A DNA stretch of 64,000 nucleotides from Lysobacterales bacterium 63-13 (GTDB lineage: Bacteria > Pseudomonadota > Gammaproteobacteria > Xanthomonadales > Rhodanobacteraceae). Shown one piece after another: positions 48,850 to 56,193 of the stretch; within the stretch, counting starts at the first letter, position 1; the number at the start of each line of letters is the position of its first letter. The notes under the pieces are model-generated. The model did not search any database, was not told the origin of the DNA, and saw only the letters and a list, made by a program, of their open reading frames with translations. The position numbers and the translations under genes are program-made. The DNA lies in assembly GCA_001899855.1 (NCBI GenBank), contig MKWR01000027.1:62001-126000 (forward strand), written 5' to 3'.

Positions 48850-51800
48850 TCAGTCGAGCGCAGCCAGCGCGCGCGCCAGGCGTTTCGGTGATACCGGCTC
48901 GGCCGTGCGCAGCTCCTGGGCAAACACCGATACGCGCAACTCCTCGATGAGCCAGCGCAGGTCGTTCAACGCCTCGGCATCGGCATCACCGGCGTTGCGC
49001 CGCTTCAGGTACTCGCGCCAGTAGACGTGCACGCCGAGCATGCGTGCCTGGTCACGTGCCGGATCCTGGCGCAAGCGTTCGCCGCGCAGGCGCATGCCGC
49101 GCAGGTAGCGCGGAATATGGCCAAGGTGCGCGGGATCGGTGTTGCGCAGGAAGCCCGGCGCAAGCAGCGTGTCGCGTTGTTCGCGCAGATCCTCGTAGTT
49201 GGCCGTGGCAAAGCCCAGCAATGGCGGCTCCAGCCAGGGCAACAACTCGGCATGTGCCTCGATGATCGATTCGGCCAGGCCGAGGCGTTCAATGACCGCG
49301 GGAAACAGTTCACTGCCGATTTCCGCCTGCAGTCGCTCGAAATCGCCGCGCCTGCGCGCATCCAGCGCATGCGCCGCCAGACGCTCGGCGAGGGCGGCCT
49401 CAACCAGATCGGCACGCAAGGTTTCAGCGCTGCCGAGCGCGGCCCATTTCAGCGCGGTGATGTTGGCCAGCGGCAACTGCCGTCGCGCCTGCTTGACCTT
49501 GTCGGCCAGCGCCCGTCGCAACAGGCGTTCGACGCCACGTCGATGTTCCGCGTGCGCCTCGTCGGCATTCTCGAACACGCGCAAGGCCACGCTGTCGCCA
49601 AGATCGACCAGGGCCGGCCAGGCGACAAGGCCTTCCGCGGAGCGGATCGATTCGGGAATGTCCTCGATATCGAATCCGGACAGCTCCTCGCGGGTCAGCT
49701 CGGCATCGGCGCGCTGCGAGAATGCCGCACGCGCCGCTGCCGCCCAGTCTTTCTGGATCACGGCAAGGTCACGCCCTTCGGCGATGGTCTTGCCCTTTTC
49801 ATCATGCACGCGCAAGCGCATCAGCAAATGCGCCGGCAGCTCGATGCCGGCGAAATCCGCCGCCGTGACCTCGATGCCGGTCACCTTGCGCAGATAGGTC
49901 GCCAGGACTTCGGCCAGGGGTCGTTGGCGAATTGCCGCGTCCTTGCCCAGCGATTCGACGAAGGCACGCGCAAAGTCCGGCGCGGGGACGAAATTGCGGC
50001 GCAGGGATTTCGGCAGTCCACGAATCAACTCGCTGACTTTTTCCATCAGCATACCCGGCACCAGCCATTCGCAGGCGCTCGGCGACAGGGCATTGACCAG
50101 GGCAAGCGGCAGGTGCGCGGTGACGCCGTCGGCTGGATCGCCAGGGACAAAACGGTATTCAAGGCGAAGCGCGTGCGTGCCGAGCATCAGCCGTGGCGGA
50201 AAATCCTCGGCGGTAAGCCCCGGTGTCGCCGACATCACATCCGCCAACGACCAGCGCAACGCCGCCTGCTCGGCCGGTCGCGCCTTGCGATACCAGGCGT
50301 CCAGCGCCGCACTGGTATGGATGTCGGTCGGCAGGCGGCCATCAAACAAGGTGGCCAGTTGCTCCGTCGACTTGAGCAGGCCGGAACGCCGCTGCTTGGC
50401 TTCGATCTCCAACGCCTGGGCCAGCGTGCGCTGGTTGGCGCGGATGAAATCCGCATGCGCATCGATCTCGCCGGTGGCCAGCGCCTCGCGCACGAAGATT
50501 TCGTGCGCCGCCGCCGGATCCTGCTTGCCGAATTGCACCACACGCCGCTCGACCAGGACCAAGCCGAACAGGCTGACCTGTTCGTAGGCAACCACCGCAC
50601 CGCGCTTGCGCGACCAATGCGCGTCATGCCAACTGCGCCGGATCAGGTGCGCGGCCTGCTGCTCGATCCAGAGCGGCTCGATGCGTGCGCATTGCATCGC
50701 ATAGACCTTGCCGATATCGATGATCTGCCCGGCCAGCAGCCATTGCGGCGGCGACTTGGCCAGCGCCGAACCCGGGAAGATCGCGAATTTGCGCTCGCGC
50801 GTGCCACGGTACTGGTTGCGCTCATCCTTGCGCGCAACCTGGGTCGGCCAGCCGCTCAGGAGGCACCGATGAACTTGTTCATCGGTGCCGGGATTCGAGA
50901 TTCGGGATTCGGGATTGGTTGGAGCAGACTTCGCTTCGGCTGATGCATCGGGCTTGCGGCGGCGTCTGCTTCTGCTCTTGCTCTTCTCGAATCCCGAATC
51001 CCGAATTTCGAATCCCGGCTCCTTGCCGAATTCCGAATCCCCAATCCCGAATCCCGGCATCACCAGCAACTGCCTGTGCAGTTCCCGCCACTCGCGCATG
51101 CGCATGAAGGAGAGGAAGTGGCTGCGGCACCAGTCACGCAGTTTCGATTGGGTGAACTCCTCGTGGGCGCTGGCGTAGGCGGCCCACAGGTTGAGCACGC
51201 CGATGAAATCGGATTTGGCATCGGCAAATTGCGCGTGTGCGGCGTCGGCTTGCTGGCGCGCGTCAGCCGGACGTTCGCGGGGATCCTGGATGCTCAGGAA
51301 GGAGACGAGGATCATCAGCTCGCGCGAGACTCCGAGCCGCTGCGCCTCGATCAGCATGCGCGCCAGCGCGACATCGACCGGCAGGCTGGCGATCGTCGCA
51401 CCGATCTTCGTCATGCGGTGCTGCTCGTCGATGGCGCCAATCTCGATCAGGCGTCGATAGCCATCGCCAATCGCGCGCTCGGGCGGCGCTTCGACAAACG
51501 GGAAATCCGCGACATCGCCGAGCTTGAGGCTCAACATGCGCAGGATCACGCCGGCCAGCGAAGTGCGCAGGATCTCCGGATCCGTGTAGCGCGGACGCCC
51601 GGCGTAATCGTCCTCGGCGTACAGGCGATAGCAGATGCCGGCGGCGACACGTCCGCAGCGGCCCTTGCGCTGGTCGGCGGCGGCCTGCGAGATGGGTTCG
51701 ATGTGCAATCGCTCAAGCTGGCCGCGCTGGCTGTAGCGCTTGACCCGCGCCGTGCCGGTATCGACGACGAAACGGATGCGCGGCACGGTCAGCGAAGTCT

Positions 51801-52854
51801 CGGCGACATTGGTCGCCAGCACGATGCGCCGCTTCGGTCCGGGTTTGAACACGCGATCCTGTTCGGTTGCGGAGAGCCGCGCATACAGGGCAAGCACTTC
51901 GGTTTCGCGGTACTTGCGCCGATCGAGGGCAAGGTGCGCATCGCGAATCTCGCGTTCGCCGGGCAGGAAGACGAGCACATCGCCGCGCGGATCCTCGACG
52001 GTGATCTCGTCGACCGCGGCAACGATCTGCTCGACGGAACTGCTCTCGCCACGCTCGCCCTTCACCCCGCCATCGGCAGCCGCCGCGGGTCGCCAGCGCA
52101 CCTCGACCGGAAAGGTCCGCCCCTCGACTTCAAGCACCGGCGCGTTGTCGAAATGTGCGGCGAAGCGCGCCGTGTCGATGGTCGCCGAGGTGACGATGAG
52201 CTTGAGGTCGCGGCGCCTGGCCAGCAGGCGCTTGAGGTAACCAAGCAGGAAATCGATGTTGAGGCTGCGCTCGTGGGCCTCATCGAGAATGATCGTGTCG
52301 TAGGCACCGAGCCAGGCATCGCCCTGGGTTTCGGCGAGGAGGATGCCGTCGGTCATGAACTTGATCAGCGCGGCATCGCCAACCTGCTCGGTGAAACGCA
52401 CCTGGAAACCGACCAGATCGCCGACGGTCGTATCCAGCTCGCTGGCGACGCGGCGTGCGACCGTGCGCGCGGCAATCCGGCGCGGTTGCGTGCAGCCGAT
52501 CATGCCAGTCGTGCCGCGTCCGGCGGCGAGGCAGAGTTTCGGCAATTGCGTGGTCTTGCCGGAACCGGTTTCACCGGCCAGCACGATGACCTGGTTCTCG
52601 CGGATCAGCTTGATGATCTCGTCACTGCGCTCGGCGATCGGCAGCGCTGCATCGATGCGGATTTGCGGCACGCGCGCCGCGCGTGCGGCGACCTTCGCCG
52701 TCGAGGCCGCGATCTCGGCCGAGAGCTTTTCGAGTTGTTCGCTGCTTGCCGACGCCGTGTCCCGTTGCAGTCGCCGCAAGCGTCCGCTCAAGCGACCACG
52801 ATCGCTGCTCGCGACGCCCGCCAGTGCGGATATCAGTTCTGACAAGTTGGACAT
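48850..52854 (-). CDS. hrpA: ATP-dependent RNA helicase HrpA with an in-frame repeat insertion
   Basis: A DEAH-box RNA helicase of 1334 residues from the ATG at 52854 (E. coli HrpA 1300). Walker A GETGSGKTT (94-102), DEAH in ILDEAHERS, SAT, then TNVAETSLT and QRKGRCGR mark the motor; the long C-terminal part ending in WLIEELRVSVFAQEL matches HrpA. It remodels RNA or ribosomes in E. coli, including collided ribosomes. After LREWRELHRQLLVM-type sequence, about 57 residues encoded by a repeat element (50888-51057) interrupt the linker before TDEQVHRCLLSGW, which aligns with E. coli YREIHIALLTGL. No ribosome site precedes the ATG because a second repeat array abuts it; the frame continues open to 53094. 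Confidence 0.93.
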   Translation of the reverse strand: MSNLSELISALAGVASSDRGRLSGRLRRLQRDTASASSEQLEKLSAEIAASTAKVAARAARVPQIRIDAALPIAERSDEIIKLIRENQVIVLAGETGSGKTTQLPKLCLAAGRGTTGMIGCTQPRRIAARTVARRVASELDTTVGDLVGFQVRFTEQVGDAALIKFMTDGILLAETQGDAWLGAYDTIILDEAHERSLNIDFLLGYLKRLLARRRDLKLIVTSATIDTARFAAHFDNAPVLEVEGRTFPVEVRWRPAAAADGGVKGERGESSSVEQIVAAVDEITVEDPRGDVLVFLPGEREIRDAHLALDRRKYRETEVLALYARLSATEQDRVFKPGPKRRIVLATNVAETSLTVPRIRFVVDTGTARVKRYSQRGQLERLHIEPISQAAADQRKGRCGRVAAGICYRLYAEDDYAGRPRYTDPEILRTSLAGVILRMLSLKLGDVADFPFVEAPPERAIGDGYRRLIEIGAIDEQHRMTKIGATIASLPVDVALARMLIEAQRLGVSRELMILVSFLSIQDPRERPADARQQADAAHAQFADAKSDFIGVLNLWAAYASAHEEFTQSKLRDWCRSHFLSFMRMREWRELHRQLLVMPGFGIGDSEFGKEPGFEIRDSGFEKSKSRSRRRRKPDASAEAKSAPTNPESRISNPGTDEQVHRCLLSGWPTQVARKDERNQYRGTRERKFAIFPGSALAKSPPQWLLAGQIIDIGKVYAMQCARIEPLWIEQQAAHLIRRSWHDAHWSRKRGAVVAYEQVSLFGLVLVERRVVQFGKQDPAAAHEIFVREALATGEIDAHADFIRANQRTLAQALEIEAKQRRSGLLKSTEQLATLFDGRLPTDIHTSAALDAWYRKARPAEQAALRWSLADVMSATPGLTAEDFPPRLMLGTHALRLEYRFVPGDPADGVTAHLPLALVNALSPSACEWLVPGMLMEKVSELIRGLPKSLRRNFVPAPDFARAFVESLGKDAAIRQRPLAEVLATYLRKVTGIEVTAADFAGIELPAHLLMRLRVHDEKGKTIAEGRDLAVIQKDWAAAARAAFSQRADAELTREELSGFDIEDIPESIRSAEGLVAWPALVDLGDSVALRVFENADEAHAEHRRGVERLLRRALADKVKQARRQLPLANITALKWAALGSAETLRADLVEAALAERLAAHALDARRRGDFERLQAEIGSELFPAVIERLGLAESIIEAHAELLPWLEPPLLGFATANYEDLREQRDTLLAPGFLRNTDPAHLGHIPRYLRGMRLRGERLRQDPARDQARMLGVHVYWREYLKRRNAGDADAEALNDLRWLIEELRVSVFAQELRTAEPVSPKRLARALAALD
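50863..50888. repeat. 12-bp inverted repeat bordering the hrpA insertion
   Basis: GCACCGATGAAC (50863-50874), two T residues, GTTCATCGGTGC (50877-50888): a perfect inverted repeat inside hrpA. It touches the left end of the inserted element. The bases also code for residues TDEQVHRC that align with conserved HrpA positions, so it may be the original target site rather than part of the element. Confidence 0.6.
50888..51057. repeat. Interspersed GGGATTC repeat element, copy A (inside hrpA)
   Basis: About 170 bases. Left arm: units of GGGATTC and variants (50889-50918). Core: about 50925-50984, including CTGATGCATCGGGCTTGC (50940-50957). Right arm: inverted units of GAATCCC (50988-51057). The arms are complementary, so the element can fold. 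On the minus strand it is open throughout and codes for about 57 residues (FEIRDSGF, ESRISNPG and basic KSRSRRRR). The core matches copy C in inverted orientation, 18 bases identical. Confidence 0.85.
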
Positions 52855-53006
52855 GGATTGGGAATCGGGAATCGGGAATAGGGAATAGGGAATGGTCAAA
52901 GCGGTTTGCGGTCCATCCACCCTCCTCGCAAACGCCTCAACCTTGAAATCTGCGCTGTCGTTGCTTCCGCCTTTGCCTTTGCTCCTGCCGACTCCCCATT
53001 CCCGGC
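52855..53006. repeat. Related repeat, copy B (GGGAATA type) at the hrpA start
   Basis: Five units of GGGAATC/GGGAATA/GGGAATG run from 52859 to 52894, directly against the hrpA start codon. An inverted patch CCCCATTCCCGG lies at 52994-53005. The core between differs from copies A and C, so this is a relative or a decayed copy. It removes any ribosome site from the normal place before the hrpA ATG. Confidence 0.6.
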
Positions 53007-53117: not shown

Positions 53118-53585
53118 ATGGCCATCGATATCGGTATTTCTTCCAAGGATCGCAAGACCATCGCCAACCATCTGTCGAAGTTGCTGGCCGACAATTATTC
53201 GCTGTACCTGAAGACGCACAGCTTCCACTGGAACGTGACCGGGCCGATGTTCAACAGCCTGCACACGATGTTCGAGACCCAGTACAACGAACTCTGGCTG
53301 GCCAACGACATCATTGCCGAGCGCATCCGCGCGCTTGATGTCATGGCGCCGGGCTCGTATTCCCAATTCGGCAAGCTGACTTCGATCAACGAAGAGTCCG
53401 GCGCACCCGATTGGAAGGAGATGGTGCAGCAACTCGTCGATGGCCACGAAACCGCGGCGCGCACCGCGCGCGCGACGATCAAGGTGGCCGACAAGGCCGA
53501 CGACCAACCCACCGCCGATCTCGCCACCCAGCGTGTCGAGGCGCATGAAAAGACGGCGTGGATGTTGCGGTCGTTGCTCAAGTAG
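53118..53585 (+). CDS. dps: Dps-family ferritin-like protein
   Basis: A 155-residue DNA-binding/starvation-type mini-ferritin. It forms 12-mers that oxidise iron with hydrogen peroxide and shield DNA. The family signature is visible: [20 protein letters not shown] with the ferroxidase His and Asp/Glu residues, then [14 protein letters not shown]. The start has AGGAG seven bases upstream. No lysine-rich N-terminal tail, so DNA binding may be weak. It converges with the ThrE-type gene; a repeat copy fills the space between. Confidence 0.93.
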
Positions 53586-53722
53586 CCGGGAATCGGGATT
53601 CGAAATTAGGGATTCGGTTAGATCAAAAGCGGACGCAATCGCAAGCCCGATGCATCAGTCGAAGCGGAGTCCGGCCTACCCAATCCCGAATCCCGAATTC
53701 CGGCTTCACAACCGAATCCCGG
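53586..53722. repeat. Interspersed repeat element, copy C (between dps and thrE-like gene)
   Basis: About 137 bases that start right after the dps stop and end four bases before the stop of the convergent exporter gene. Left arm GGGAATC/GGGATTC units, core with GCAAGCCCGATGCATCAG (53641-53658) and right arm CAATCCCGAATCCCGAATT. The core equals the reverse complement of copy A over 18 bases and is similar over about 45. Facing arms could form a long hairpin and act as a two-way terminator. Confidence 0.85.
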
Positions 53723-53725
53723 CCT

Positions 53726-54988
53726 TCAAAGCTTCCTTCGCGGTGGCACCAGCAGGTCGCCGAAGAGCAGGCCGGCGACCAGGGCGACGAGCAGGGTGAC
53801 CAGGGTGATGCCGGTGTCGATGCCGAGCATCACATCGCGCTCGAAGACAAAGCTCAGGGTGCGGAAACCGACGCTGCCGGGCACCAGCAGGATGATGCCC
53901 GGCTCGCGGATCAGCGCGCCCGGCCGGTGGAAGAAGCGCGCAAACACATTGCTGGCGGCACCGAGCAGCAGGCCGCCGGCAAACACGCCGAACGCCGCCG
54001 AGACATAGGCGCCGCCGACCCGCGTGCAGATATAGCCGGCGATGACCGCGCCGATGACGATCGGGAAAAAACGCAGGGGACTGCGGAAGGTGATGGCAAA
54101 GGTCAGCGCGGCCAGCGGCACCGCCACCCACTCGGTCCATGGCGGCATCGCCAACCGCGGAACCATTGGTGGCACGAGGCCGAACAAGGCACAGACCTGG
54201 GTCGCCGCGACGGTGCCGAAGGCGAGCTTGAGCAATACCGCCATCGCGCCGGCCATGCGCGCGGTGCCAGATACCAGGTCCTGGCTGGAGAGTTCGCGCA
54301 CTGCCGCGGTCAGGCTCATGCCGGGCAAGAGGATGATCAAGCTGGCGACGACCACCGAGCGCACCTGGATCGGCACCAGATACACCGCCACCAGGGTTGC
54401 GATGATGGTCGCCAGCAGTGCCGAAATGGCCTCGAAGGCGGCGGCGATTTGCGGTCGCTTGCTTGCTGCAAGGGCGGTGATGCCGGTCGCCAGGCCGATG
54501 CACCCCGCGGTGGCGACACCGGCCCAGCCGGTCAGCAGGATTGCCGCCACGCAGGCCGAGGCAACCGCGTAGGCCACCAGCACCAGCATCGTTGCCGGCA
54601 GCGACGGCTTGCTCAAGCCGACTTCGCGCAGGCGTCGCCGCCCTTCGGCAAGTTCCAGCTTGCCACTGATGACCTGGTCGGCAATCTCGTCGACCAGGCA
54701 CAGGCTCTTCAGATTGACTTCGCCGGGCGGCAGGCGCAGCACCTGGGTCGTTTCCGCCAGGCCACCAACGCCATCGTCGACTTGCGAGAACGACATGATG
54801 ATCGAGGTCGGCGTCGACAGTGGATCGCAGTTCAGGCCGAGGCGTTGGGCAACGAGGATGATGGCCGCTTCCAGGCGCGGCGCAGCGGTTCCGTATTCAT
54901 GCAGGCGACGCGCGAGCTCGACGACGAATTCGACGCGGGTGGTCAAGGGCAGGTTGGTCATCGGCAAGTCCGGAACAGCGCGCGGCAT
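53726..54988 (-). CDS. Threonine/serine exporter family membrane protein (ThrE-like)
   Basis: A 420-residue protein with two parts. The N-terminal soluble half is the ThrE/DUF1212 domain (VVELARRLHEYGTAAPRLEA; LSTPTSIIMSF). From about residue 165 come roughly ten membrane segments, including LIILLPGMSLTAAVREL and IILLVPGSVGFRTLS, both typical. It probably exports threonine/serine or small organic acids. Start: ATG at 54988 has AGGGAG eight bases upstream; ATG at 54961 is an alternative. Divergent from the lipid-transport operon at 55081. Confidence 0.9.
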   Translation of the reverse strand: MPRAVPDLPMTNLPLTTRVEFVVELARRLHEYGTAAPRLEAAIILVAQRLGLNCDPLSTPTSIIMSFSQVDDGVGGLAETTQVLRLPPGEVNLKSLCLVDEIADQVISGKLELAEGRRRLREVGLSKPSLPATMLVLVAYAVASACVAAILLTGWAGVATAGCIGLATGITALAASKRPQIAAAFEAISALLATIIATLVAVYLVPIQVRSVVVASLIILLPGMSLTAAVRELSSQDLVSGTARMAGAMAVLLKLAFGTVAATQVCALFGLVPPMVPRLAMPPWTEWVAVPLAALTFAITFRSPLRFFPIVIGAVIAGYICTRVGGAYVSAAFGVFAGGLLLGAASNVFARFFHRPGALIREPGIILLVPGSVGFRTLSFVFERDVMLGIDTGITLVTLLVALVAGLLFGDLLVPPRRKL

Positions 54989-55080
54989 TATGCCGGCTCC
55001 CTGCCCCGGTCGCTGCGCGGCTGTTGCCGGAGATTCAGCTCCAGCGCGGCCTTGCGGGCGATTGCTGCTAACCTTTGCCA

Positions 55081-56193
55081 ATGAGCGAAGCGGGCAGCGC
55101 ACAACTCGTCGAGGATGGCAGCCGGCTCAGCATCCGCGGAGACTGGACGCTTGAGCACGTCGCGCGACTTGCCACCCTGTGCGCAAACCTGCGGGGCAGG
55201 ATCGCTGCCGATTCGCGCATCGATGCGCGCGCGATTGGCCGCATCGACACTGCCGGTGCCAGTTTCCTGCTCGACCTTGCCGGTGCGGATCTGGCCCGCA
55301 TCGATGTCGACCGCGCATCCACGCGCAAGCTGATTGCCGCGGTATCGCGCGCGGAAAATGCGCCGCCGGCAAAGCGTCGTCGCAAGGATCGAGGATTCAT
55401 CGCCATCCTCGCCAATGTCGGCCAGGCGCTTGGCGATATCTGGAACGATGCAATCGCCCTGGTCGGCTTCATCGGCCTTATCCTCGCGGCCTTTGCACGC
55501 AGTGCCCTGGATCCACGGCGCTGGCGCGTGACATCGACCGTTGCGCACATCGAACAGACCGGCCTGAACGCCCTGCCGATCGTTGCCCTGCTGTGTTTCC
55601 TGGTCGGCGCGGTGGTCGCCTTTCTCGGTGCCACCGTGCTCAAGGATTTCGGTGCGAGCATCTACACGGTCGAGCTTGTCGGCTACTCGTTCCTGCGCGA
55701 ATTCGGCGTGCTGCTGACCGCGATCATGGTTGCCGGGCGCTCCGGCAGCGCGTTCACCGCGCAGATCGGTTCGATGAAGGCGCGCGAGGAGGTCGATGCC
55801 ATTCGCACCCTCGGCCTGCAACCGGTCGATGTGCTGGTCATGCCGCGCGTGCTTGCCCTGCTCGTGTCGATGCCGATCCTGACCCTGATCGGCATGCTCG
55901 CCGGCATCATCGGCGGTGCCGCGGTGTGCGTGATCACGCTCGATGTCTCGCCGCTGATGTTCATCACGCGCCTGCACGAGACCACCGGCGTGCGCCATTT
56001 CTGGGTCGGCATGAGCAAGGCGCCCGTGTTCGCCTTCCTGATTGCCGCGATCGGCTGCCTCGAGGGCTTCAAGGTTTCCGGCAGCGCCGAGTCGGTTGGC
56101 ATGCATACGACATCGAGCGTGGTGCAGTCGATCTTCGTGGTCATCCTCATTGATGCGCTGGCGGCGATCTTCTTCATGGAGATCAACCTGTGA
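55081..56193 (+). CDS. MlaE-family permease with fused N-terminal STAS domain
   Basis: A 370-residue subunit of an MCE-type phospholipid transporter. Residues 10-90 resemble STAS (RLSIRGDWTLEHVARL; RIDTAGASFLLDLAG), normally the separate MlaB. The permease then has GANVLKDF-type helices, FGASIYTVELVGYSFLREFG, MVAGRSGSAFTAQIGSMKAR and EVDAIRTLGL, hallmarks of MlaE. It opens a four-gene operon and its stop overlaps the ATPase start (GTGA). ATG 55081 is preferred over TTG 55075. It would sit in the inner membrane and move lipids between the membranes. Confidence 0.92.
   Translation: MSEAGSAQLVEDGSRLSIRGDWTLEHVARLATLCANLRGRIAADSRIDARAIGRIDTAGASFLLDLAGADLARIDVDRASTRKLIAAVSRAENAPPAKRRRKDRGFIAILANVGQALGDIWNDAIALVGFIGLILAAFARSALDPRRWRVTSTVAHIEQTGLNALPIVALLCFLVGAVVAFLGATVLKDFGASIYTVELVGYSFLREFGVLLTAIMVAGRSGSAFTAQIGSMKAREEVDAIRTLGLQPVDVLVMPRVLALLVSMPILTLIGMLAGIIGGAAVCVITLDVSPLMFITRLHETTGVRHFWVGMSKAPVFAFLIAAIGCLEGFKVSGSAESVGMHTTSSVVQSIFVVILIDALAAIFFMEINL

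Follow-up and report, generated by a model that had tools for sequence, protein, structure and literature searches.

The window analysed here, a stretch of 64,000 nucleotides, carries a short non-coding element between two convergent genes. A dps-like gene (53118..53585, plus strand; Pfam Ferritin domain) ends with its stop codon at 53583-53585, and a ThrE-like exporter gene (53726..55102, minus strand; Pfam ThrE/ThrE_2) faces it, leaving 140 bases between the two stops. Element A (53586..53722), recognised by sequence match, occupies 137 of these bases, in agreement with the sequence-only reading, which had described the gap as filled by a repeat. Its left arm (53588..53615, plus strand) reads GGGAATC GGGATTC GAAATTA GGGATTC in four registers, of which the third is degenerate; it mixes two dialects of the heptamer, and only three of its GGG tracts are intact. 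The loop (53616..53680, plus strand) holds the core singled out earlier (53641-53658), and the right arm (53681..53720, minus strand) consists of CAATCCC GAATCCC GAATTCC (53681-53701) followed by a displaced GAATCCC (53714-53720). The tandem units GGGAATC GGGATTC place element A under the published heptamer definition, which comprises at least two tandem GGGANTN units including one GGGAATC. Rfam at gathering score gave 0 matches across the window. The gap filler is a worn non-coding relative of the xanthomonad GGGAATC-family hairpin element, and the orthologous dps/ThrE-like gap holds an element in four of the ten genus genomes examined (the own genome, G018, G025 and G022).

A second element, B (50890..51016, minus strand), comprises four units, a loop at 50918-50988 and four further units. 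It lies in frame within an hrpA-like helicase gene (48850..52854, minus strand; the start at 52854 is inferred from the sequence, with the frame open to 53094), 2.6 kb from A and in inverted orientation. B is better formed than A, the hrpA reading frame stays open through it, and an extra outer half-arm of four units sits beside it in the same gene (51028..51055, minus strand). The core, GCAAGCCCGATGCATCAG, starts at 53641 in A, and its reverse complement starts at 50940. A and B share 77% identity across query positions 9-113 of A (E 1.2e-20), and their loops score z 16.9 relative to shuffled sequence, a likeness far beyond chance which bears out the inverted copy proposed earlier. A third feature, array C (52860..53003, no strand assigned), has five GGGAATN units (52860-52894), which a CATTCCC at 52997 faces. 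It lies immediately upstream of where hrpA is inferred to start, with five bases between the end of the array and the start codon, and has no counterpart in G018. The corresponding place in G018 and G025 carries CGGAATCGGATATGG-like and CGGATTCGGATCTGG-like sequence, possibly a seed for the array.

The core had also been proposed as one of the marks of a dispersed family; the dispersed family is borne out through the arms, while the shared core is not. A search of the 3.75 Mb genome gave two occurrences of the core pattern, and the reversed control gave 0. Of 233 genomes of the taxonomic family, only the own genome yielded the 67-base core and none of the 232 others did, and the exact core pattern matched no record in the searched genome-contig collection, from which the own genome may itself be absent. 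When 83 loops (47 own, 36 from G018) were compared, two pairs exceeded the highest shuffled score of 28: A/B, at 64, and an orthologous pair, at 32; the only loop relative of A among the catalogued elements of its own genome is the hrpA element, and the other catalogued loops are unrelated to this core. The array pattern GGGAWTNGGGAWTNGGGA, with one mismatch allowed, gave 300 matches genome-wide (overlaps included) against 0 in the reversed control. The family mark is the arms and not the core: (GGGAWTN)4 faces (NAWTCCC)4 around unrelated loops.

The facing-pair pattern gave 35 and 24 matches in the own genome for two spacing ranges, and 50, 32, 23, 14, 7, 2, 0, 0 and 0 in nine congeners for the first range; these matches overlap and hence do not count elements. 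A catalogue of at least 101 distinct elements was drawn from fetched stretches (47 own, 36 G018, 18 G025). It is partial, and many sites were chosen for holding a pair, so that a recount of 50 arrays among the matches listed is the one figure free of that choice. In this recount an opposite array lay within 200 bases in front of 36 arrays and behind 0, a same-strand array lay in front of 2, and 12 had nothing in front. Among the 202 arms of the catalogued elements, 141 have four units. The units occur in two dialects, GGGAATN (AAT) and GGGATTN (ATT), with a single dialect in 185 of the arms and a mixture in 5, and both arms share their dialect in 96 of 99 callable elements, 2 more being uncallable. 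The inner edge carries the box GNNARAGC; of 166 edges, 99 have RAGC no more than 12 bases away, whereas shuffled loops averaged 13.5 such edges and reached 24 at most. Beyond the first unit, an outer GCC is present at 80 of 198 edges, where about 7 are expected. The unit of the family is a pair of facing arms, each usually of four GGGAWTN heptamers, with a loop that varies by element. Unpaired arrays can be long: those at L181 (G000 C23:93579 and 94160) and L166 (C13:292864) have 7 to 12 units, compared with the usual four. Across the order, a half-element of four perfect units plus the box was found in 46 of 299 genomes (control 0); by hand count, 20 of these belong to the own family (76 genomes) and 26 to a second family (78 genomes), and the remaining 145 genomes have 0.

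In outline, the family is already known. GGGAATC heptamer repeats and facing pairs have been published for Xanthomonas (Rehm et al. 2015, PMC4692102), and passages of that paper report 70 facing pairs in Xcc and 75 in Xac, a repeat type 'usually preserved' between species, and formation of G-quadruplexes in vitro by Xcc oligonucleotides of the repeat. The elements described here resemble the repeats of those passages in their tandem GGGANTN units, the preference for four units, the facing pairs, the mostly intergenic position and the lower frequency between divergent genes. The same passages contain no GGGATTC dialect, spacer analysis, inner box, loop inversion or replacement; what is new relative to them is the matching of dialects, the inversion of loops and the replacement of elements at fixed sites.

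Position relative to genes was assessed in orthologous gaps of three species pairs, counting gaps with an element in either species in regions chosen around elements. Elements occupied 7/40, 14/50 and 12/31 tandem gaps, 6/13, 6/14 and 5/6 convergent gaps, and 0/9, 0/4 and 1/2 divergent gaps. In these sampled gaps, elements are present in tandem and convergent arrangement and almost never in divergent arrangement, in agreement with the positions published for Xanthomonas (PMC4692102), and the family may plausibly act at the 3' ends of genes. Folding of 98 elements, with three of the 101 left out for exceeding 180 bases, gave z < -2 in 95 and a median of -5.8; the values were -2.9 and -2.6 for element A, and -0.2 and -1.7 for array C. 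The same reading had proposed that the element serves as a two-way intrinsic terminator, an idea that draws on the place of A between convergent genes and on the frequent occupation of convergent gaps. A T-rich tail (a U tract after the stem) accompanies just 7 of 202 element edges, no terminator-like site was found at element A, and B lies inside the hrpA reading frame, all of which argue against it. An intrinsic two-way terminator is unsupported, and we consider it highly improbable.

Mobility offers another explanation, in which the elements are REPIN-like or MITE-like transposons mobilised in trans by a transposase (a RAYT or one of another kind), with the changed sites described below being fresh insertions after loss. 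REPINs consist of two inverted units around a variable spacer, REP-type palindromes have the head GTAG, and MITEs are short, dispersed and bounded by terminal inverted repeats. The elements share with MITEs the terminal inverted repeats, short length and dispersal, and differ from them in having neither target duplication nor a common interior. They share with REP/REPIN sequences two inverted units, a variable spacer, many copies and gene-end positions; unlike them, they have arms of tandem heptamers, and no RAYT adjoins them at the examined loci or tracks them. REP elements with their RAYT are the subject of PMC3686654. The facing arms with a defined inner box and the frequent outer GCC are consistent with transposition, as are the truly empty orthologous sites at L231, L248 and, in G018, array C. 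Eleven rows in the gap comparison were scored as 'absent'. Those of L140, L259:7809 and L260:8352 are gene-calling artefacts with elements present; among five places that were re-read, arms are present at L247, L234 and L266 and there are none at L231 and L248. Further such rows are L251:10609 and L260:9132.

Several results argue against transposition. Target-site duplication of 2-8 bases beyond the ends was at or near permutation in 98 elements, and the copies have no shared loops. A REP-type tyrosine transposase had been suggested as a mobilising enzyme and was searched for: of 19 Y1 matches, the 12 loci examined include 0 with a heptamer array, and PF01797 does not track facing pairs: it is present in three congeners that have no pairs and absent from one that has two. 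A RAYT-driven REP is unsupported, and a transposon of either type appears unlikely.

Conservation within the arms was examined in 13 orthologous elements, four of them with G000 and one being the ambiguous L196:3609. Where a unit had no more than one mismatch, the six fixed bases were identical at 525 of 552 positions (95%) and the seventh base at 69 of 92 (75%; permuted 32.8). Taking all 104 units of the same elements, the corresponding figures were 556/624 (89%) and 72/104 (69%), and the nine G018/G025 pairs alone gave 394/432 and 53/72. The seventh base is near-neutral, close to the four-fold sites (0.776), and the other six are conserved above it, an excess that comes partly from detecting arms through those very bases. 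At same-dialect sites the arms are inherited, with the six bases kept more than the seventh.

Within an element, arm identity is not above permutation against other same-dialect elements in any dialect set. Because the arms of one element are no more alike than this, there is no sign of arm homogenisation or of pair covariation, and the matching of dialects must come from the founding or replacement of elements, or from selection for uniform arms. In the AAT set, the seventh-base matches between arms were 1.21 of 4 against a permuted 1.40, with 1908 of 2000 permutations at or above. Perfectly complementary arms occur in none of the 95 matched-dialect elements.

Comparison of orthologous sites shows how elements change. 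G018 and G025 are two Dokdonella species with a four-fold identity of 0.776; G000 and G018 are more distant (0.651). Between G018 and G025, 18 orthologous element sites were scored, each site once. All 8 clear same-dialect sites had related loops (z 6.1 to 27.9), of which one was inverted; at the dialect-switched sites, where both arms had switched, z was >5 in 0 of 9 (range -1.3 to 4.0), the top value of 4.0 belonging to the coding hrpA linker. The eighteenth site, L196/L219, has the same dialect and a tandem duplication that leaves its partner ambiguous: the loop of L219:971 in G025 matches the neighbouring G018 copy L196:3609 with z 11.8 and the flank partner L196:2285 with z 0.8, while the flanks favour L196:2285. 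Element-free gaps between the two species gave z >5 in 31 of 34, and a neutral simulation, run at an indel rate of 0.04 of our own choosing, gave z >5 for all loops. In the hrpA-dps-ThrE region, the element-free stretch scored z 41.7, against 0.3 for the gap loops. At many sites, arms and loop differ between related species although neighbouring element-free gaps align.

Loops can also be inverted in place. At L239/L240 (G018/G025), the forward comparison gave 3.6 and the reverse z 22.3; at L266/L267 (own/G025), the values were 2.4 and z 19.5. In the latter case (L266:2366 and L267:11950) a 33-base loop is inverted between arms and collinear flanks that are nearly identical, and the flanking genes are those we take to be nusG and rplK. 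The 11 sites of the G000/G025 comparison comprise 8 of the same dialect, with 0 forward z >5 and one of them the inverted loop, and 3 counted different, one of them related; element-free gaps gave z >5 in 8 of 11.

For G000/G018, 18 sites include 7 of the same dialect, with one related loop (z 5.2), and 11 counted as different, with one related loop, that of the half-switched element C4:252925. This last element has an ATT left arm and an AAT right arm and was tallied as 'different', as was element A because of its mixed left arm. Element-free gaps for this pair gave z >5 in 20 of 29 and <3 in 7 of 29, and the simulation gave z >5 in 70%. The split between same-dialect and switched sites is less clean at larger distance. 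In the G025 gap, ATT units remain outside an AAT element; this arrangement and the half-switched element may be intermediates.

These comparisons bear on a purely selective account, in which hairpins or G-quadruplexes are maintained at gene ends while loops drift neutrally and nothing is copied. Conservation of six bases beyond the seventh, gene-end positions and hairpin folds all suit such an account, as do the greater distance of G000 and G018 and the seven low-scoring element-free gaps of that pair. It does not accommodate the neutral simulation for G018/G025, in which every loop stayed above z 5, yet nine sites with both arms switched fall below; nor does it explain the contrast between the hrpA-dps stretch and the adjoining gap loops, the loop common to A and B, or the loops inverted in place. 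Selection alone was already disfavoured and is, in our assessment, very unlikely.

The hrpA linker deserves separate description. In hrpA (window 50890-51055; L140, L141, L145) the arms form two nested layers, an outer arm, box and inner arm. They are ATT throughout in G018 and AAT throughout in G025, so one switch can affect several arms at once. In other genera (L099, L103-L118, L124), the linker translations, judged by eye, contain, besides GGGAAT arms, further inverted repeat classes: PSPLRGEG...PLTPALSPEGRG-type sequence and GGGACTC-like sequence (SGLGTRDSG). The linker looks like a tolerant site that is repeatedly refilled.

Loop relationships connect this linker with the gap. In G025, the gap loop matches the hrpA loop with z 9.8, and its comparison with the gap loop of the own genome gives a score of only 3.6; neither G018 nor G022 has a gap loop related to its hrpA loop. 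This pattern suggests that hrpA and the gap exchanged sequence independently in two lineages (own and G025), in inverted orientation both times. Loops of hrpA are partly alike across species (for example G021/G022, z 11.8, and G022/G000, 5.4), and because of this hrpA is the likelier source, so that the direction of copying would be from hrpA to the gap.

Taken as a whole, element A is probably an hrpA-related member of an arm-defined family whose elements are copied between sites and whose loops flip while the arms are kept. Whole elements would be copied from element to element, and for the nearby hrpA/gap pair this copying may proceed by replication template switching or short-tract conversion. 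For whole-element copying, the partial catalogue offers hrpA and the gap as its sole donor and recipient; it contains no donor for most of the replaced elements, since only A/B stands out apart from one orthologous pair. Loop flips would arise by template switching at the hairpin. Passages of PMC8604942 describe spacers inverted by template switching at inverted repeats, and the spacer inversion at two sites here resembles the cases in the passages of PMC8604942 and PMC8794818; unlike those cases, which concern yeast and RNA genes, the arms here are not homogenised. The flipping of a loop between inverted arms also resembles the small inversions reported for hairpin loops of plastids, which differ in affecting plastid DNA with no dispersed fixed-arm family. 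Template switching explains the loop flips, but homogenised arms, its other signature and one expected if switching were frequent, are missing, as the arms within an element are no more alike. The arms themselves might be kept because each acts alone near gene 3' ends, perhaps as a G-quadruplex or a protein-bound sequence, a suggestion we put forward more weakly than the others. A bolder and more tentative proposal, which we hold to be possible though doubtful, is that the arms bound exchangeable cassettes, and that at conserved sites next to genes an undescribed bacterial copying process rewrites whole elements from one dialect to the other and flips their loops, both at a faster pace than the surrounding intergenic DNA changes, and can also carry part of a protein-coding gene, the hrpA linker, into the gap.

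These repeats are abundant in xanthomonads, and the passages of PMC4692102 describe them as quadruplex-forming without giving an account of their spread or turnover. The present data give the family a precise anatomy and part the six conserved heptamer bases from a near-neutral seventh. They also reveal loop inversion and whole-element replacement at fixed sites, two observations for which every mechanism has to account. Three named sites make the process directly testable: the dps gap, the hrpA linker and the nusG-rplK-like gap.
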